A stretch of 64,000 nucleotides of DNA from Bacteroidales bacterium. Lineage in GTDB: Bacteria; Planctomycetota; Planctomycetia; Gemmatales; Gemmataceae. Where the stretch lies: positions 1-64,000 of the forward strand of contig JAIXLE010000222.1 of NCBI GenBank assembly GCA_026931725.1, in the 5' to 3' direction. The notes under the pieces were generated by a model, which was not told the origin of the DNA, did no database searches, and was given only the letters and a program-made list of their open reading frames with translations. Below are positions 48,431 to 61,117 of this stretch, piece after piece. Position 1 is the stretch's first letter. Every line of letters begins with the position of its first letter. The position numbers were made by a program, and so were the translations under genes.

Positions 48431-49306
48431 CTAGCCGGAAACGGGCCGCTGCCCCCAGGGAATCGGCATGGTCGGCGGGGTCCGGTGGCGGTCTTGCCGC
48501 ACGTCTTTGGGCCGTTGATGGAACCAACTGGCGAACCGCGTCAGTTGCTTCACGGCTTCCTCGTACACTTGCCGCCCCTTCTCTTCGGTGGCCAGTTCCG
48601 CATCGCCGAGTACGCCGGTTTCGGAATAGCTGCTGGTCCAAGAAACCACGGTTGCCGGGCCAGCGGCGAAGAGGTCGACCCACTGGAACGGGCTGTTCTC
48701 GTCGTTAAAGCTGATGGTTCCACTCTTGATCTGATCCTTGCGGACATTGTCACCATCGAGGTACAGGTACAACGAGGTTTCGAGTTCGCAGGCATGGGCA
48801 CAACCACCGGGGAACTTGCTTTGCCGCCAGCGTGGCAAGAACTCTTTATCCACGGTGAGCAGATTCCACCAACCCGCCAAGACGCATTCCGCATCCGTTT
48901 CCAAGTTCGTCCGTCGAGCTACGAGGTCCAGATTCGGCATGTTGGAGCCGTGGCCATTCAAAAGAATAATCTTCTTGAAGCCGTGATAGGCTAAAGATTT
49001 CGTGATGTCGAGGACATGATGCATGAAATGTTCAAAATCGTTGTTGATCGTGCCGGGAAAGTCCATGACGTGCCCGGTGTAGCCATACGCCACGACCGGC
49101 AACACCAGCACTTTGTCGGGGATAGCCTGCCCGGCACCGTTGGCGATGCCGACCGGGCAGATGAGGTCCACATCCAACGGTAAATGCGGCCCATGCTGTT
49201 CCACCGCACCACACGGCACGATGCAGACTTTCCGCAAGTCGACAGCATCGTTGATTTCGGGCCAGGTCAACTTCTCATAACGGTACTCGGTCGCGGCTCG
49301 GCTCAT
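48431..49306 (-). CDS. Creatininase family protein (creatinine amidohydrolase-like)
   Basis: A 291-residue metal-dependent amidohydrolase. The N-terminal metal site is PCGAVEQHGPHLPLDVD (Glu and His), the second is LLNGHGSN and the third HACELETS. MDFPGTINNDFEHFMHHVL is also typical. AAGG-AG 9 bases upstream of ATG 49306. Creatininases, mycofactocin MftE and 3-dehydro-scyllo-inosose-type hydrolases share this fold, so the substrate is open. It is divergent from the M28 peptidase gene with an 86-base intergenic region. Confidence 0.88.
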   Translation of the reverse strand: MSRAATEYRYEKLTWPEINDAVDLRKVCIVPCGAVEQHGPHLPLDVDLICPVGIANGAGQAIPDKVLVLPVVAYGYTGHVMDFPGTINNDFEHFMHHVLDITKSLAYHGFKKIILLNGHGSNMPNLDLVARRTNLETDAECVLAGWWNLLTVDKEFLPRWRQSKFPGGCAHACELETSLYLYLDGDNVRKDQIKSGTISFNDENSPFQWVDLFAAGPATVVSWTSSYSETGVLGDAELATEEKGRQVYEEAVKQLTRFASWFHQRPKDVRQDRHRTPPTMPIPWGQRPVSG

Positions 49307-49392
49307 CGGGAACGCTCCTTCTGGTGCTTTCGTGTCCACCGTCTGTTTTGTACGATATGCTGCAAGGCTGAACGTGGCACGGAGAGTGACGT

Positions 49393-50481
49393 ATGGGACG
49401 GACAACCCGATGGATTCTGGTAGGAATCGCCGTGATGGCGCTCGTGGTCGGGCTGGTTTGGCAACCCTGGACTGCCACGGCCGAACCGCAACAACGTGAC
49501 CGCTTCGCGGATGATCGCCCAGTTCCTTCTTCCGAAAGTTCTCCTATGTCCCGCGATCAGTTCGGTCAAGACCGTGCGGGAACCGTTGCACCGGGGAAAG
49601 CCATTCCGTTCGATGGCAAACGCTCCCTTCAATATCTGACGGAACTGTGCGACATCGGCCCGCGTGTCAGCGGCACCGCAGGGATGGCGAAACAGCAGAA
49701 ACGACTTGTCGACCACTTTGAAAAGCACGGAGCCAAAGTCACCCGCCAAGAGTTCCCCGCCCGCCAGCGGAGCCAAAAAGACGCGGTGACGATGACCAAC
49801 CTCATCGCCTCCTGGCACCCGGATCGGAAGCAGCGTATCATCCTCTGCTCGCACTACGACACCCGCCCCGCCGCCGACCAGGAACCGAACCGCCGCGATT
49901 GGCACAAGCCGTTCGTCAGTGCCAACGATGGGACATCCGGGGTGGCCTTCCTGATGGAACTCGCCCATCACATGGCGGACATCCCCACGGGTGCCGGAGT
50001 CGATTTCGTGCTGTTTGATGGGGAAGAATATATCTTCGACCCCGGCGTTCCGGGCATCCGGGAAGGAGACAAGTATTTCTTCGGAAGCGAGCATTTTGCC
50101 CAGGATTACGCCAAGCAGCGGGGGCAACTCCCGTACCGTTACGAAGCCGCCGTGCTGTTGGACCTATTCGCGCACGCCGACGCTCGCCTTGCGGTAGAAG
50201 GATACTCATTTGCGTTCGCGCCGGGACTCGTGACGCAAATCTGGAAGATCGCGGAATCCGTGGGGGCGAAGTCTTTTCGATTCGAGCGAGGGTTTGGCCG
50301 ATCTCTCGACGTGTTGGACGATCATGTAGCCCTCAACCGGGCGGGCATCCCGGCGGTGGACATCATCGACTTCGACTACGAGCACTGGCACCGACTCTCG
50401 GACACGCCCGAAAAATGCTCGCCACAACAGATGGCCGAAGTGGCCAAGGTCATCACCACTTGGCTACAAGGATGGAAGTAA
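49393..50481 (+). CDS. Exported M28-family zinc hydrolase, glutaminyl-cyclase-like
   Basis: A 362-residue protein with an N-terminal hydrophobic signal or anchor (ILVGIAVMALVVGLVW). Zinc-site motifs are SHYDT (H154, D156), SANDGTSG (D179) and FDGEEYI (E211-E212), then DDH and WHRLSDTPEKCS (H333). The combination of DDH...AGIPAVDIIDFDYEHWH with a single-zinc arrangement is closer to glutaminyl cyclase than to classical aminopeptidases. An acidic, Ser/Gln-rich linker lies between signal and domain. Either a secreted aminopeptidase or an N-terminal pyroglutamate-forming cyclase; cyclase is favoured but unproven. Confidence 0.8.
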   Translation: MGRTTRWILVGIAVMALVVGLVWQPWTATAEPQQRDRFADDRPVPSSESSPMSRDQFGQDRAGTVAPGKAIPFDGKRSLQYLTELCDIGPRVSGTAGMAKQQKRLVDHFEKHGAKVTRQEFPARQRSQKDAVTMTNLIASWHPDRKQRIILCSHYDTRPAADQEPNRRDWHKPFVSANDGTSGVAFLMELAHHMADIPTGAGVDFVLFDGEEYIFDPGVPGIREGDKYFFGSEHFAQDYAKQRGQLPYRYEAAVLLDLFAHADARLAVEGYSFAFAPGLVTQIWKIAESVGAKSFRFERGFGRSLDVLDDHVALNRAGIPAVDIIDFDYEHWHRLSDTPEKCSPQQMAEVAKVITTWLQGWK

Positions 50482-50573: not shown

Positions 50574-50608
50574 CCATTGGCTTTCTCCACCCCTAACCCG
50601 TGCGCATC

Positions 50609-52066
50609 ATGACCCCTCATCACGAATTTCTCACGGCTCAGACACGCCGACACTTCTTCCGAGCGGGGGCGATGGGCCTTGGCACTGCGGCCCTGACGAG
50701 TCTGCTTCCCACTCCCACCGTTGCCGCGGAATCCCCGGTAATCGGCGGGTTGCCGGGGTTGCCACACTTCGCCCCGAAAGCGAAACGGGCCATCTATCTA
50801 TTCATGAATGGCGGACCCGCGCAGCAGGATTTATGGGATTACAAGCCGAAGATGCACGATCTGTTCGACAAGGATTTACCCGATTCGATCCGCAAGGGAC
50901 AGCGACTCACCACGATGACCAGCGGGCAAGCCCGTTTCCCGATCGCACCCTCGAAATACACGTTCACCCAACACGGCAAGGCTGGCACCTGGGTCAGCGA
51001 ACTCCTTCCCTGGACCGCGAAACTCGTCGATGACATTGCCCTGGTGAAATCGGTCTACACCGAAGCGATAAACCACGACCCCGCCGTCACCTACATCTGC
51101 ACCGGCAACCAGATTCCCGGTCGCCCGAGTCTCGGAGCTTGGCTGAGCTATGGCCTCGGGACGATGAACGCGAACCTGCCCGCCTTCGTGGTCATGACGG
51201 CTACCTGGAGTGGCCGCCGCGATGCTCAAGCCATCTATAACCGCCTCTGGGGGTCGGGCTTTCTGCCCAGCAAACATCAGGGGGTGGCCTTGCGGTCCCA
51301 GGGCGACCCGGTGTTGTTCCTCTCGAACCCGGATGGCCTCTCCCGTCAGACTCGGCGCAAAATGCTCGATGCCCTCGGTCAACTGAACCAGAAGACGTTC
51401 GACACCGTGGGCGACCCCGAAACCCAGGCCCGCATCGCCCAGTACGAGATGGCTTTCCGTATGCAAACGTCCGTCCCGGAACTGGCGGACATCTCGCGGG
51501 AACCCAAATCCATCCTGGATCTGTACGGCCCGGATGTCACCAAACCCGGCACCTTCGCGGCGAGTTGCCTACTGGCTCGGCGTCTGGCCGAACGGGGAGT
51601 ACGGTTCACCCAGATCTTCCATCGGGGTTGGGACCAACACGGAAACCTCACCGGCGACTTGCCAAAACAGTGCCAGGATGTGGACCAAGCGTGCTACGCC
51701 TTGGTTACGGACTTGAAGAACAGAGGGTTACTCGACGATACGCTCGTCATTTGGGGCGGGGAATTCGGTCGCACGGTGTATTGCCAGGGTCGTCTCACAC
51801 GGGAGAACTATGGCCGGGACCATCACCCCCGCTGTTTCCCGACCTGGCTTTGCGGTGGCGGAGTGAAACCCGGAATCGTCTACGGGGAAACCGACGATTT
51901 CAGCTACAACATCACGGAGAACCCGGTTCACATTCATGATTTGAATGCCACCATCTTGCACTGCCTCGGGATCGACCACAAACGGCTCAGCGTGAAGTTC
52001 CAAGGACTCGATGTCCGGCTCACCGGCGTGGAGGAACAGCACGCCGTAACAGGAATTCTGGCATAA
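50609..52066 (+). CDS. Tat-exported DUF1501 protein
   Basis: A 485-residue protein with a Tat-like signal ([22 protein letters not shown]) and the DUF1501 pattern: [20 protein letters not shown] near the mature N-terminus, [27 protein letters not shown], then [12 protein letters not shown] and [20 protein letters not shown], the sulfatase/alkaline-phosphatase-superfamily-like metal site, and [19 protein letters not shown] at the end. Planctomycete DUF1501 proteins usually accompany a PSCyt1/DUF1549 protein; the nearest here (45644-48274) is two genes away on the opposite strand. ATG 50609 is preferred over a GTG three codons earlier. Confidence 0.9.
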
Positions 52067-53025: not shown

Positions 53026-55701
53026 ATGTCTATTCGTCAACTTGTCCTCGCCGTGGCTCTCCTGGTTCCGTCTATGGGATCTGCCCAAGTGGTATATCCC
53101 CAAAAGTCGGATCAATCCGATGTCTGGATTCATTATCGGATTCGGGCCGATCAGGCCGAGCGAATTCGGCAATATCGGGCCATGACGGCGTACTTTCAAT
53201 CCTTAAAGTTTGCCCCCGCCGAACGGGAAGACGCGGACCTGGACATTTTTGACCCCACCGCGGAATACACGCACGGCAGCATTCCCACCGCGAATGCCGC
53301 GAAACTGCTTGGTGATCCACGGGTCATCACGATTGTGACCGCGCCGACCGGCTGGGCTCAACCGGCGGCGGATCAGAAAATCCCTGTACAAATGCGACTT
53401 GCCGGGCCACTCGCCCCGCGCGAACAGCGGATGCTCCACGAACAAGTGGCACGGCACCTGGGTCTACTCGGGTTCACAGAAGGGATTTCTTACGATCATC
53501 TCGGCTATACCCTGATGCGCGGCACGTTGCCCGCTGGGAATCTCTTCAAACTGCTGCGGGACTTGCGTGGCCAGCCGAGCGGTTGGTTCCTGACCGAGGT
53601 GCCGCCGCGTTACCTGCCGGCCCCGTTGCGGAACATCGTGCCGATTAAACTTGTAGAAGTTCTCCCCGAACCGATGGAAGCCGTTCCTGCGTTCCAACCA
53701 CCCGCGAAACCGACCGGGAAGCTGACCGAAGACCTTCAAGCCGTTGTCTCCGATCCCGCCCGACAAACGGAACCCCTCCGAGTGGAAGCCGTTCTAGAAA
53801 CGGTGCCGGTCGGCGCGGCGCGGGATGTCCGATTCGTGCTGCAAAATCAGGTCAGCGGCGCAACGCTGGAAGGGATCATCGGGACCGTCGCAACGATCCG
53901 TCTGCAAAAGGTGGCCGATGTCTCTCTGTTGGCGGTGCTGCCGAACATTCGCACATTACGTCTACCGCGTGCGGGGCATGATACGCTAACATCGCAAACA
54001 GCAAACGCTCTTGATCCGGTACAGTTGAACAATCTGATGGCTTCTAGCAAGGTGTCCGAACTGCACCGCCTGGGCTATCGTGGGGAAGGCCTGCATATCG
54101 TGGTCATCGGCACCGGGTTTCCAGGGGTCGATGACCAGATTGGACGGGAACTTCCCCACACAACCCAAGTCATCGACTTGACGGCGGAATTGCAACCGAG
54201 CCTCAAACCACTGCCAGCTGCTGCTGCCACGGCACCAGGAAAGCTCGTGGCGCAAACAGCCCATCTCGTTGCGCCAGCGGCTCGGCTCACTCTGGTGCGG
54301 GTGGATCCGAACGCCTTCCACCAATTGCTCACCGTAGCCCGTGCCGTGGTCGGTCGACAAGAATACTCGGTGGCCATGCTCACCCGTTCGGTCGAACTGG
54401 TCCGGCGGGGTGAAGAATTGCAGTTTCTCCGTCGGAAAGTCGTTGAAGAATACCGCGATGCCTTTTCCAACCTGAGCGACGATCCGCAACCGACCGCCCG
54501 CCGAGAAACCGCCGCCAAGGCCATGCAGCAACTGCAAGACGATGAACGCGATGTTCGGGACCGTTTCGCACGATTGACCGCATTGAAGAACGCCATCGAC
54601 GGACTCGCTGGCGCGCAAGTGGTCATCAATACGCTGGTCTGGGAGAGCGGGTATCCGCTGGATGGTCTGAGTGCCGTGAGCGAATATCTGACCGCACGAT
54701 TTGCCGGGCAGCCACCCCATGTGTCGATTGGTCAACCGAAACGTCCTGACATTCCGGTTTGGGTGCAGGCGGGCAGCAATGCGGTGGGTCGAGTCTGGGC
54801 CGGGCCATTCCGGGACCACGACGGCAACGGCATCATGGAGTTCACCGATGCGAAAGCAGCACTCCCCCAGAAACGCTGGACACCCGAACTCAACTTCCTC
54901 CGTTACGTCCCCCAGGACGGTATGCCGGGGTTGGTCATCCCCGCCGAGACACAAATCCGGTTCACCGTGCAGTGGCGGGAACCCCACCCGACCGACCAAC
55001 TGTTACCCGCGGAACCCGTGTTCCCCCTGACGTTACGGCTACTGCGACAACTCGACCCGGAAGGCAAGACGCGAGCCAGCGATGAGATGGTGGAAGTGGC
55101 CCGTTCATCCGTGCCGCCGACACGGCTGATGCGAACATCGGGCAGCGGTGTGTACGAGGTATCGTTGGATGTCACAATCCCGGCGGATGGGGTCTACGCG
55201 CTGCGAGTCGATGGGAAACCCGCCGCCAACCCGGCCATCCCCGCACTGGAAACCGGCTGGGAACTGTATCCGCGTATCGTCATCGACCCGGTGAACGCGG
55301 CGGCGGAGTCGGGACTAGTCCTCTTCGATTCGTTCGCTCCGCGTGCCGCGGGGGTGGGCATCCCCGGCGATTCCCCGGCGGCGTTGACGGTGGGTGTTGG
55401 CAAACCGGCCGCCTACCAGGAACCGTTGTCTCTCTCGACTGGCGGCCCTGGCCTGGCACTCTCGACGAAGCCGGATCTGCTTTCCGCCGGAACGATCCTT
55501 ATTGACGCAACGGGTGGCACGGGGCCGGGCATGGCGACAGGGTTTGCCGGTGGAACCGCGGCCCTGTTGGGGTCCGCTGGGGTTCGGGGCTCAGAATTGG
55601 TCCGGGCGGTGAACCTGCGACCAGGCGGCCCGTTGGTGTTGCCGAGTTACTGGTTGTCGCATTTGCGCCCACGCACCGCGAAAGTCGGCTCCGAACGATA
55701 A
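53026..55701 (+). CDS. Exported subtilisin-like protein lacking the catalytic triad
   Basis: An 891-residue protein with a signal peptide (VLAVALLVPSMGSAQ). A subtilase-like core is visible, but each catalytic position is changed: GYRGEGLHIVVIGTGFPGVD has Gly362 where DTG Asp belongs, PGKLVAQTAHLVAPAARL aligns with HGTHVAG.. and has Leu407 for His, and TGPGMATGFAGGTAALL aligns with GTSMA.PHVAGAAAL and has Gly835 for Ser. A coiled-coil insertion (about 450-520) and an EF-hand-like loop DHDGNGIMEFTD lie inside the fold. It is likely a pseudo-protease acting as a binding or structural protein. Alignment was by eye. Confidence 0.7.
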   Translation: MSIRQLVLAVALLVPSMGSAQVVYPQKSDQSDVWIHYRIRADQAERIRQYRAMTAYFQSLKFAPAEREDADLDIFDPTAEYTHGSIPTANAAKLLGDPRVITIVTAPTGWAQPAADQKIPVQMRLAGPLAPREQRMLHEQVARHLGLLGFTEGISYDHLGYTLMRGTLPAGNLFKLLRDLRGQPSGWFLTEVPPRYLPAPLRNIVPIKLVEVLPEPMEAVPAFQPPAKPTGKLTEDLQAVVSDPARQTEPLRVEAVLETVPVGAARDVRFVLQNQVSGATLEGIIGTVATIRLQKVADVSLLAVLPNIRTLRLPRAGHDTLTSQTANALDPVQLNNLMASSKVSELHRLGYRGEGLHIVVIGTGFPGVDDQIGRELPHTTQVIDLTAELQPSLKPLPAAAATAPGKLVAQTAHLVAPAARLTLVRVDPNAFHQLLTVARAVVGRQEYSVAMLTRSVELVRRGEELQFLRRKVVEEYRDAFSNLSDDPQPTARRETAAKAMQQLQDDERDVRDRFARLTALKNAIDGLAGAQVVINTLVWESGYPLDGLSAVSEYLTARFAGQPPHVSIGQPKRPDIPVWVQAGSNAVGRVWAGPFRDHDGNGIMEFTDAKAALPQKRWTPELNFLRYVPQDGMPGLVIPAETQIRFTVQWREPHPTDQLLPAEPVFPLTLRLLRQLDPEGKTRASDEMVEVARSSVPPTRLMRTSGSGVYEVSLDVTIPADGVYALRVDGKPAANPAIPALETGWELYPRIVIDPVNAAAESGLVLFDSFAPRAAGVGIPGDSPAALTVGVGKPAAYQEPLSLSTGGPGLALSTKPDLLSAGTILIDATGGTGPGMATGFAGGTAALLGSAGVRGSELVRAVNLRPGGPLVLPSYWLSHLRPRTAKVGSER

Positions 55702-57346: not shown

Positions 57347-57473
57347 GCCGCTTATTCTGATCGAAATGATTTGAGAAACCTTGCGGATTGCGCGGGCAAA
57401 TTGCCGATTACAGTTCTGAACCGAAATGGAACGGCCAGAAGTCTTTCGCCTGCGCGGTCTGGGGAGGTTGGCA

Positions 57474-59201
57474 ATGAACAGTGCGCGGGCTGGTATTGTG
57501 CTGGGACTCATCACGCTGGTGGGACTCGCCCAGGCGGATGATGTCTCCTGGAAGCCAGCTGCACAAACCACACAAGCCGCACAAACCACGCAAGCCGCAC
57601 AGGCTGCGTTCCCGGCCCCGGTCAAGGCTGCGACTCCACCGACTTCCTCGCAAGGGTTGGTCTTCACTCCGGTGGCCCATCCCACGCCAATGCCATCGAA
57701 TGCGCCATCATTTGGGGCCGCCCGTCCGGCTGAGCCAGGGTTGACATGGGTTCCGGCACGCACACCGACCGTGCCCGTTCAGATGCCGTTACCCGCACCG
57801 CGACCGCTCATTCCCGATGCGTTCCCGGAACCCGCGCTCCCCAAGCCGATGCCGCCGCTCCATCCGCAGCTCACACCGCCAGAGCCAGTGCCCGCGCCCG
57901 CGGCGGGTTGGTCCAATGAAGTTTGGGGCACACGCACGGCCACGGATGTGATTGCCGAGACAGTTCCAGAAGGGGTCATCCTCGAAGCCCCGGCGAATAT
58001 CCGATCCAAACCTGTCCGTTATCACGGTGTCAGTTCCCCGAACGTGACGCTCAACCGCGATCATCACTTTTTGGACATCTTCGGCCTGCCACTCTTGGGG
58101 GATGATGGGAACTCCATCATCCTCGGCGAAGGCGCGCCGGTGACGAATTCCTACGTTCAGGTGGAGTATCTGCTCTGGTGGCTCCAGACCGGCACGATTC
58201 CGGTGCTGGCCTCAACTTCCAACAATGGCGGGTTCGGCTTCCTGAACAATCCGGGTTCCACCGCGATTCTGGGACCAGGACGGTTCGGAACATCGCTCAT
58301 GGATGGGATGCGGATTCGTGCGGGCACTTGGTTCCACGGCGGTGGCACTGGGCTCGATGCCAGTTTCTTCTTCCTGGGAAGACGAAACGCGGGCTTCGCG
58401 GTGGGTTCCGATACCACGCCGATCATCACTCGACCATTCTTCGCGCCGAATCCGGGAGTCAACAGCGAGTTCGGCGAACAGGTCGCCTATCCCGGCCAGT
58501 CGACCGGCTCCCTGGCGGTGGAGAGCAGTACCGCACTCTGGGGGGCAGACATCAACTTGTTGAACTGCGTTTGCCGCACCTGCGATTCACGTTCCAACTG
58601 GTTCCTCGGTTTCCGGCACCTCAACATGCAAGAAGGGTTGCGGATCACGGAAACGCTGACCGCCGGGCCGATGGCTTCCCAACCACTCGGAACATCCATC
58701 GTCGTTCAGGACTCGTTCCAAACACGGAACCGCTTCTACGGTGCCCAACTGGGTTGGGCCGTGGGCCGCACCCGTGGCCGGTTCGACATTGATGGCCGTG
58801 TCTCCGTGGCGCTCGGTTCGACGCACCAGGAACTGGAAATCGCCGGGTTCCAAGGCGTGACCCCGCCAGGCGGTCAGACGGCTACCTACACGGGCGGATT
58901 GCTCGCCACCGGCCCGAACCTGGGCACGTTTAGCCGGAATCGGTTCGCGGTGGTTCCCGAGTTCACATTGAATCTCGGTTATCTGTTCTCGCCGAACTTC
59001 CGCACCTACATCGGTTACAACCTGATTTACTGGTCGGATGTCATCCGCCCCGGCGAGCAGATCGACCGCACGGTTGATCTGACCTACGTCCCGAACGGCC
59101 CCGCGGTTCCGTTCTCGGGGCAAGTGCGGCCACAACCACTCTTCCGGTCCTCGGATATGTGGATTCAAGGGATTCAGTTCGGAGCCGAGTTCCGCTGGTG
59201 A
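57474..59201 (+). CDS. BBP7-family outer membrane beta-barrel protein
   Basis: A 575-residue protein with a signal peptide (IVLGLITLVGLAQA), an Ala/Pro/Thr-rich spacer (AQTTQAAQTTQAAQAAFPAP and a Pro-rich run to about residue 150) and a C-terminal planctomycete BBP7 (DUF1551) barrel: YVQVEYLLWWLQTGTIPVLA, GMRIRAGTWF, ADINLLNCVCR, NWFLGFRHLNMQEGL, GAQLGWAVGRTRGRFDIDGRVSVALGS, LNLGYLFSPNFRTYIGYNLIYWSDVIRPGEQID. It ends in FGAEFRW, an aromatic C-terminus suited to BAM insertion. GGGGAGG 6 bases before ATG 57474. Confidence 0.88.
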   Translation: MNSARAGIVLGLITLVGLAQADDVSWKPAAQTTQAAQTTQAAQAAFPAPVKAATPPTSSQGLVFTPVAHPTPMPSNAPSFGAARPAEPGLTWVPARTPTVPVQMPLPAPRPLIPDAFPEPALPKPMPPLHPQLTPPEPVPAPAAGWSNEVWGTRTATDVIAETVPEGVILEAPANIRSKPVRYHGVSSPNVTLNRDHHFLDIFGLPLLGDDGNSIILGEGAPVTNSYVQVEYLLWWLQTGTIPVLASTSNNGGFGFLNNPGSTAILGPGRFGTSLMDGMRIRAGTWFHGGGTGLDASFFFLGRRNAGFAVGSDTTPIITRPFFAPNPGVNSEFGEQVAYPGQSTGSLAVESSTALWGADINLLNCVCRTCDSRSNWFLGFRHLNMQEGLRITETLTAGPMASQPLGTSIVVQDSFQTRNRFYGAQLGWAVGRTRGRFDIDGRVSVALGSTHQELEIAGFQGVTPPGGQTATYTGGLLATGPNLGTFSRNRFAVVPEFTLNLGYLFSPNFRTYIGYNLIYWSDVIRPGEQIDRTVDLTYVPNGPAVPFSGQVRPQPLFRSSDMWIQGIQFGAEFRW

Positions 59202-59416
59202 GAACCGCCATTGTGGAATGGGCCGAAGTTCGTTATGCCCAGCTCCCAGCGCCCAGAACGGATCGTGAGAAAACAGCGGATCGCCCGCGCAAGCCCAGCA
59301 CGGAAAGGGGGAGGCGGGTCGATTCTGTCCGCGAACTTACCCGCGAATCAGTCCGCGAAGCCGTTGAGGATCAACGGGCCGCGTATTGCCTGCGTATTCT
59401 GCTGAGGTCCGCGACC

Positions 59417-61117
59417 ATGTGCCGATTCACTGCCCGAATGGGTTCCTTCCCCATCGCCGCCATCACGTTCCTGGCCGGGCTGGCGATGGCCGCGTGGGCG
59501 ATGACCGGGAACGCCCACGCGGCCCCGACTCCGGGAACCGGCATCGAGATTCTCACGCGCGGCCCCGTTCACGAAGCCTTTGCCCGCTCCCCCGAACCGA
59601 TCACGCAGGGCGGAAACGTGGTAAAACCGTTGCCACCGGACCCGATTCCAGAACTTCCACCCGATCAGAAGCCAAACCGGAAGAACGTGCAGTGGATTCC
59701 CGGTTACTGGCACTGGGACGAGGAACAGAGTACGTTCCTGTGGGTCAGCGGCATCTGGCGAGTCCCGCCGCCGGGGCACGTCTGGATTCCGGGAAGTTGG
59801 CACACCGTTCACGGCGGCCATCAGTGGGTGGCGGGTTTCTGGCAATCCACCGCGACTCCGACCGCGTCACAATCCGCACCGACTTCCTCAGCCGAGATGC
59901 GGTATCTGCCGCCACCACCGTCGAACGAACCCCAGGAAGCCGCGGCAAAAATTGCGACACCATCAGATTCCCCATCATCCGATGCGACGTTCTGCGTTCC
60001 GGGGCACTGGGTCTGGCGGGAACGCTACGTCTGGCAACCGGGATTCTGGACCGATCACCGCCCCGGTTGGGTCTGGGTGCCCGCTCAATATTCCTGGACC
60101 CCGGCTGGCTACCTTTTCGTCAACGGATATTGGGACTATCCCCTGGCCGAACGCGGAATGCTTTTCGCCCCGGTGCGCTTGGCTCCCGCAGTCGCGGCCC
60201 GGACGGATTTTGTTTTCACCCCCAGTCACACCGTTTCCCAGAATGGCTTGATCGCGGCGTTGTTCATCCGTCGAGGTTGTGGGAACTACTTCTTTGGCGA
60301 CTACTTTGATACCCACTACACAGCCGCCGGGTATCGAGACTTTGGAGGAACGAACAGCGACTCCGGGTTTGCCACGGTGAACCGAAGTCTCCGCATCGCC
60401 CGTGTCGATCCGCTCTGGTTTGCCGTGCGGTTTCAGCATCGCGCGGATGCGACATGGTCCCAGGATTTGATGGAATTGTATCAGGCCCGTTTACGCGGTG
60501 AGCTTCCTCGACCACCACGGTCATTCGCGCAGCAGACGCGATCATCGGGCGAATCTGAGAAAATCCACACTCACGGAACCCGTACTCCCCGCACGAATCG
60601 GTTGCTTGCGGAAGCCCGCGTGATGGTGCAAGCCCTCGCACAAGATGAACCATCAACCGATCGGCAAACCGTTCCACAAGCCGAGCGGCTCCGCGAACAG
60701 CAACTCGCCCGTGAGATGCGCACTCTGGCACTCCAGCGTCAGCGGATGGAAACGCAGCTCGTGGATCGGGGGCAAGCCGTGACATCTCCCGGATCAGCGC
60801 CCCGGTTGGCGCAATGCCTGATTTCACCTGCTGTGATGGCGCGTGTGCCAGATTCTCGCAGTGTGCCGCCCTTGCCTACGCAATCGACACGGAACGAACT
60901 CCACAGCACCGCCAGCACCCCGGCACCGGAAACCCTGCCCGCGATCACCCTCGCAGCTTCACCGAATGCGCAAGTCGCCGTGATCACCGCACATGGGTTT
61001 GCCAAACCCGCTCCGGTGGATACCCCGGCGACTCCCAAGGCCGCTCCGCAACTCCCGCAACCCCGCACGATTCCGATTCCGCCGCCGTTGTCGCTTCAGG
61101 TGCCGAATCGGAAGTAA
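59417..61117 (+). CDS. Exported Trp-rich repeat protein (WxPGxW type)
   Basis: A 566-residue protein. A signal peptide (AAITFLAGLAMAAWAMTGNAHA) is followed by repeated short Trp motifs: WIPGYWHWDEEQ, LWVSGIWR, VWIPGSWHT, QWVAGFWQS, then FCVPGHWVW, VWQPGFWTD, WVWVPAQYSW and LFVNGYWDYP. These match the YXWGXW/WxPGxW repeats of planctomycete envelope proteins. The C-terminal half is a helical Arg/Gln/Glu-rich region with a Pro-rich tail. It probably binds polymer or coats the cell surface; function unknown. It is directly downstream of the BBP7 gene with a 215-base gap and may be co-expressed. GAGG upstream of ATG 59417. Confidence 0.7.
   Translation: MCRFTARMGSFPIAAITFLAGLAMAAWAMTGNAHAAPTPGTGIEILTRGPVHEAFARSPEPITQGGNVVKPLPPDPIPELPPDQKPNRKNVQWIPGYWHWDEEQSTFLWVSGIWRVPPPGHVWIPGSWHTVHGGHQWVAGFWQSTATPTASQSAPTSSAEMRYLPPPPSNEPQEAAAKIATPSDSPSSDATFCVPGHWVWRERYVWQPGFWTDHRPGWVWVPAQYSWTPAGYLFVNGYWDYPLAERGMLFAPVRLAPAVAARTDFVFTPSHTVSQNGLIAALFIRRGCGNYFFGDYFDTHYTAAGYRDFGGTNSDSGFATVNRSLRIARVDPLWFAVRFQHRADATWSQDLMELYQARLRGELPRPPRSFAQQTRSSGESEKIHTHGTRTPRTNRLLAEARVMVQALAQDEPSTDRQTVPQAERLREQQLAREMRTLALQRQRMETQLVDRGQAVTSPGSAPRLAQCLISPAVMARVPDSRSVPPLPTQSTRNELHSTASTPAPETLPAITLAASPNAQVAVITAHGFAKPAPVDTPATPKAAPQLPQPRTIPIPPPLSLQVPNRK

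Follow-up and report, generated by a model that had tools for sequence, protein, structure and literature searches.

The 891-aa protein under study, whose complete frame runs from ATG to stop within the 64,000-nucleotide stretch of DNA analysed here (the window), almost certainly descends from the subtilisin-like S8 peptidases and has lost their catalytic triad. It is predicted from its sequence to be exported and soluble, and the sequence comparisons together with the predicted structure suggest that it probably acts as a pseudoprotease, binding a peptide or protein partner. A first-pass annotation had proposed that this planctomycete protein is exported and has a subtilase fold in which none of the three catalytic residues remains; this is borne out by profile comparisons, the predicted structure and a 34-member clade of triad-lacking homologues to which the window protein belongs (hereafter the dead clade).

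When searched as a single sequence, the protein matched no Pfam or NCBIfam family (Pfam up to E 10) and gave no significant match in the PDB sequence set. The S8 relationship was seen with profiles, built from the family (A1), from dead-clade members only (A2) and from short, intact S8 paralogues of Gemmataceae (A4; L111-L122). A1 matched subtilisin BPN' with an E-value of 3.9e-11, with residues ~341-430 (Asp-His part) and ~777-855 (Ser part) aligned, and matched A4 with 6.2e-28 in a profile-profile comparison (HHalign), so that the three segments that had been assigned by eye to the Asp, His and Ser motifs do correspond to these regions of S8. The match is independent of the intact relatives, because the dead-clade-only profile still gave 1.1e-11 against A4 across the whole S8 domain (HHalign) and 1.6e-4 against subtilisin in the PDB. 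A search with the Peptidase_S8 profile (PF00082), as suggested in the first-pass annotation, gave a divided result: the window protein itself was not matched, but 15 of 30 homologues were matched individually (best 1.2e-9). None of 30 dead-clade members reached the PF00082 cut-off, which is a detection threshold and not a property of the fold, and this explains the missing annotation of the window protein.

The AlphaFold (AF2) model of the protein (pLDDT 86.9, pTM 0.85) has a predicted subtilisin-like fold, as had been anticipated. Its best PDB matches in Foldseek were the Clostridioides difficile pseudoproteases CspC and CspA (E 1.2e-12 to 7e-10), with low TM-scores over the whole query (0.32-0.36) and 10-12% identity in the fold alignment, followed by pro-subtilisin E (E 4.1e-6, TMt 0.64).

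The coordinates of the gene and of its parts are listed in Table 1. The catalytic columns can be regarded as well identified, because Asp, His, the oxyanion Asn and Ser are invariant in all 12 short intact paralogues. Glycine had already been placed at the Asp and Ser positions, and both the family and HHalign alignments agree with this. The His position, however, had been read as Leu407, which is three residues too far; Leu407 aligns with the second His of GHGTH, which is not catalytic. Around the oxyanion column the context is also altered, to AGSN in place of AAGN.

Table 1. Features of the pseudo-subtilase gene in the window (residue numbers refer to the 891-aa protein).
Feature	Residues	Coordinates	Strand	Basis
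Whole gene, pseudo-subtilase predicted to be exported	891 aa	53026..55701	+	ORF, homologues, AF2 (pLDDT 86.9, pTM 0.85)
Putative Sec-type signal peptide, ...MGSA/Q	1-20	53026..53085	+	By inspection only
Ferredoxin-like repeat 1, beta-alpha-beta-beta-alpha-beta	~27-112	53104..53361	+	AF2 secondary structure; only weak Foldseek matches
Ferredoxin-like repeat 2	~116-215	53371..53670	+	AF2 secondary structure
Ferredoxin-like repeat 3, S8-prodomain position, directly before the S8 domain	~249-315	53770..53970	+	AF2 secondary structure
S8 fold, Asp-His part	332-441	54019..54348	+	A1 vs subtilisin BPN'; HHalign
Catalytic Asp column	Gly362	54109..54111	+	Alignments (VIGTGF vs VLDSGF / VIDTDF)
Catalytic His column	Pro404	54235..54237	+	Alignments (APGK vs QHGI / GHGT)
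Helical hairpin (coiled-coil) insertion	449-525	54370..54600	+	AF2; length table; HHalign gap
S8 fold, middle part, with NTLVWESGYPLDGLS segment and oxyanion strand	527-612	54604..54861	+	Alignments
Oxyanion Asn column, after Ser584 (Gly outside the clade)	Asn585	54778..54780	+	Alignments
EF-hand-like Ca loop	D597HDGNGIMEFTD608	54814..54849	+	Column counts
Jellyroll-like beta-sandwich insert, between oxyanion and Ser parts	~618-755	54877..55290	+	AF2 strands; alignment to short-paralogue insert; Foldseek
S8 fold, C-terminal part with Ser helix	763-885	55312..55680	+	A1 vs subtilisin BPN'; HHalign
Catalytic Ser column	Gly835	55528..55530	+	Alignments (TGPGMATGF vs SGTSAAAPQ / GTSLSASF)
Terminator-like stem-loop just 3' of the stop codon		55707..55727	+	No excess over shuffles

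At the N-terminus the model has a hydrophobic helix of low pLDDT (residues 3-12). The N-terminal 302 residues, modelled separately, matched tandem ferredoxin folds of ACT type in Foldseek with E 2e-3 or worse, which indicates the fold class only. The third repeat resembles a prodomain by its beta-alpha-beta-beta-alpha-beta shape only, and Inhibitor_I9 was not matched in 40 homologues. The S8 fold is interrupted in the ways that had been noticed from the sequence. A coiled-coil insertion is present as a predicted helical hairpin (helices at 449-479 and 487-525), which has a near-constant length across the family and is absent from the short S8 paralogues. A calcium-type loop is present as an EF-hand-like sequence with the pattern D597-x-D599-x-N601-G-x-x-E605-x-x-D608. 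In the dead clade Asp597 is found in 34/34 members, Asp or Asn in 31/34 at 599 and in 34/34 at 601, and Glu605 in 31/34, while position 12 of the loop (608), an Asp in the window protein, is usually Pro in clade members. The jellyroll-like insert, with strands at 623-755 in the model, and the three-repeat N-terminus are additions to the earlier description. The stem-loop behind the stop codon is only suggestive of a single-gene transcript.

Searching with the single sequence detected homologues in 40 of 59 relatives, and searching with the profile did so in 92 of the 102 genomes of the order, including 70 of the 71 high-quality ones. In a class-wide sample, the family was present in 65/68 genomes inside the order and in 0/181 outside it at E <= 1e-10. 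Matches in a scan with one Gemmata homologue included Gemmata sp. IIL30 and other planctomycete MAGs. A contig of a Caldarchaeum MAG (L128:4064-4249) had 35% identity to residues 740-807 of the Gemmata homologue, and this may be just an S8 segment.

In a tree of 86 homologues, from which the catalytic columns were excluded, the window protein fell within the dead clade, which has an SH-aLRT support of 100 and spans seven genera. The Asp is absent from all 34 members, the Ser from all 33 that could be read at this column and the His from 33 of 34, with one member retaining only the His. The sister of the clade in this tree is L006, which has Asp, His and Ser (support 94, and 95 in the core tree); support is moderate around L006 and at the deepest branches. 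The three residues are kept in 11 homologues (L006, L009, L016, L020, L021, L025, L042, L053, L057, L058 and L062), in three of which (L006, L021 and L025) the oxyanion Asn is replaced by Asp. The proposal that relatives be inspected for the triad therefore has two answers: dead-clade members lack Asp and Ser throughout, but 11 orthologues outside the clade keep Asp, His and Ser, an observation that the first-pass annotation had named as a refutation. These intact orthologues show the ancestral state and do not rescue activity in the window protein; their retained residues need not mean that they are active.

With the short, intact S8 family as the outgroup, 'triad present' was the most economical state at the root, and the ancestor of the family was probably a protease. 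Under irreversible loss, the rooted quick tree requires eight or more losses of the triad, a number that is approximate. Some lineages have gone further. The Ser half is absent from L027, L028, L030, L092, L097, L098, L102, L103-L106 and L109; in the order's second family, as in genera g20, g28 (L102) and g29, the gene stops short of the Ser part. These short forms retain the Asp-His half and the hairpin, together with the domains N-terminal to them and most of the jellyroll. A split gene as their source was rejected: in a search of both strands of the flanks with a C-terminal profile, the controls matched and none of the short forms did. The S8 domain is thus apparently reduced in them to its Asp-His half plus the jellyroll. 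Members from g15, g22 and g25 (L093-L095, L099-L101, L108 and L110) keep the N-terminal and middle parts, but the C-terminal profile did not match the stretch that follows, or matched only ~20-25 residues of it. In one genome (G027) two divergent members of the long family occur together: L024, which is full-length but has no triad, and L102, which is without the Ser half.

The gene context was compared at 23 loci in addition to the window. A divergent gene of the SDR family lies directly upstream in both the window and the L006 genome, and because it is common to both, the intact and the dead copies are likely to be positional orthologues. A gene of the same SDR family also flanks the homologue in L131, L140, L144 and L145. 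The recurrent neighbours, with functions read from their sequences, are SDR, M20 peptidase and enolase; as these are of housekeeping type only, operon context was discarded as a clue to function. Just upstream of the SDR gene in the window are genes for a creatininase, an M28 peptidase and a DUF1501 protein (48431-49405 on the minus strand, 49393-50481 and 50600-52066 on the plus strand), which did not recur around most of the homologues examined. Downstream, a BBP7 (beta-barrel porin-7) gene (57426-59201, plus strand) overlaps the start of an ORF for a WXXGXW-repeat protein (59159-61117, plus strand), so that envelope-type genes are found just downstream.

Among full-length members, W539, G542, W579, Q581 and W591 are conserved in the dead clade and outside it, and no domain is less conserved in the dead clade than in the remaining full-length members. 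Fixed differences between the two groups are confined to ten columns. Residues fixed in the dead clade that lie near the old active site, as judged by sequence, are Val580, Ser584, Gly781, Gly807 and Gly842, and the changes include G584S, A781G, P807G and A842G.

From this architecture, the window protein should be unable to cut itself or other proteins, and the ferredoxin-like N-terminal domains, including the prodomain-like third, would therefore remain covalently linked to the rest. The cleft, remodelled and without its nucleophile, could then join with the insertions to offer a surface outside the cytoplasm to which a peptide or protein partner binds, with the jellyroll, the hairpin and the calcium-type loop as additional contact or stabilising parts; calcium could possibly stabilise the protein through the 597-608 loop. 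Its role might be that of an adaptor, receptor or scaffold, with a working principle comparable to that of CspC and CspA. The function suggested in the first-pass annotation, ligand binding or assembly, is plausible.

CspC and CspA of C. difficile are S8 pseudoproteases with a jellyroll inserted in the S8 domain and a prodomain that is not released by self-cleavage (PMC6636752, PMC12880746), and their heterodimer transmits signals by binding (PMC12880746). The window protein resembles them in the S8 fold, the loss of catalytic residues, the S8-inserted jellyroll and, presumably, the unreleasable N-terminal prodomain. They differ from it in that two triad residues are lost there and all three in the dead clade, and in having one N-terminal domain where the window protein has three ferredoxin-like ones and, in addition, a helical hairpin and an EF-like loop. 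They also belong to spores in a different phylum, while the window protein is a planctomycete protein predicted to be exported, and no CspB-like partner was found in the window genome. The layout of prodomain, S8 domain and inserted jellyroll is general to clostridial Csp proteins (PMC3567191, PMC6636752), including CspB of Clostridium perfringens, which is active through Asp126, His183 and Ser494 and has an inserted jellyroll of ~130 aa (PMC3567191); CspB shares this layout with the window protein but is catalytically active and has neither the hairpin nor the triple N-terminus. The window protein is not a member of the Csp group, as its sequence relation to it is weaker than to subtilisin (0.017 for A2 against the Csp chain 9pr8_A), its context is different and the candidate active partner was not found in the window genome. 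The nearest relatives found by sequence are the Gemmataceae S8 proteins (A4, HHalign). With subtilisin BPN' and PF00082 the window protein shares the core fold and, by profile, the Asp, His and Ser motif regions; it differs in lacking the triad and in lying below any Pfam threshold. PCSK9, a subtilase that is secreted and works through binding while its prodomain stays on, cleaves itself once and keeps its catalytic residues (PMC8551645), and is compared here at the level of the S8 class. In a literature search, no described Gemmata subtilase or bacterial pseudopeptidase of this kind was found.

The main rival to binding is a purely structural role, for which the sequences would be expected to look very similar: the protein would be a building block of the envelope or matrix, with the S8 part as an inherited scaffold and the former cleft without a ligand. 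Such a role is favoured by the lineages whose Ser half is deleted while the hairpin, the Asp-His half and the domains before it remain, and by the near-universal presence in the order; the hairpin and the three ferredoxin-like repeats would also lend themselves to oligomerisation. However, full-length members keep the motifs of the cleft region and a consistently changed pocket, and neither a surface-layer signature nor a repeat signature was found. A structural role is less likely than binding. A hydrolytic or other enzymatic activity with new catalytic residues could be imagined from Asn585 at the oxyanion column and from the polar residues D384, D677, D686 and E652, which are invariant in the dead clade. 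It is improbable, since Asn occupies column 585 in only 3 of the 34 dead-clade members, and the four polar residues look structural because they are also present in intact-triad members and lie mostly in the jellyroll.

Another possibility is that the protein regulates an active S8 paralogue of the same architecture, as CspC and CspA regulate CspB. The order does contain an active-looking candidate in the short A4 family (for example L114:1161-2471), in which Asp, His, Asn and Ser are invariant; its insert lies between the oxyanion Asn and Ser, in a layout like that of clostridial CspB. It shares with the window protein the S8 core and a beta-sandwich-type insert at this place, but lacks the helical hairpin and the triple ferredoxin-like N-terminus. 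A4 paralogues were found in 32 of the 102 genomes of the order, but not in many dead-clade genomes among those searched, nor in the window genome, where the absence is uncertain because the assembly consists of 284 contigs and is 93.95% complete. Where both genes occur they are far apart, e.g. ~100 kb in G062. Such regulation is thus very improbable, and for the window genome the idea was largely rejected. Decay into a gene without function could be suspected from the repeated loss of catalytic residues and the missing C-terminal part in some lineages, but the 891-aa frame is intact and the family is retained in nearly all high-quality genomes of the order. Decay is also disfavoured because dN/dS, by a simple counting method, was 0.06 (L003/L067) and 0.10 (L069/L071) in the two closest dead-clade pairs. 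It was about 0.06-0.39 in less close dead pairs, for which high dS makes the error larger, and 0.17 in the intact pair L020/L042. Constraint and distribution together essentially refute decay, and the pattern in the dead clade reads, at the level of sequence, as remodelling under constraint.

Returning to the binding reading, it can be extended tentatively to the family as a whole. An order-wide family of binding proteins may have arisen from an ancestral secreted subtilase, with the triad lost repeatedly and independently, with the active site of the dead clade changed in a fixed way (Gly of the oxyanion strand to Ser, catalytic Ser to Gly or Ala) into a recognition site, and with some lineages cut to half of the S8 fold. 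If true, a single gene family would hold a natural gradation that leads from protease through pseudoprotease to half-domain, in part at one conserved locus. Most of what is known of non-catalytic S8 proteins comes from a handful of examples, such as CspC and CspA, or PCSK9, which acts without cutting its target. Here, intact, partly lost, fully lost and half-deleted states of the triad coexist in one near-order-wide family, some of them at matching loci, so that the step from enzyme to binding protein becomes directly testable. For Gemmata-type bacteria, whose envelope biology is debated, it would also provide a candidate function for an exported protein without any Pfam or NCBIfam match.
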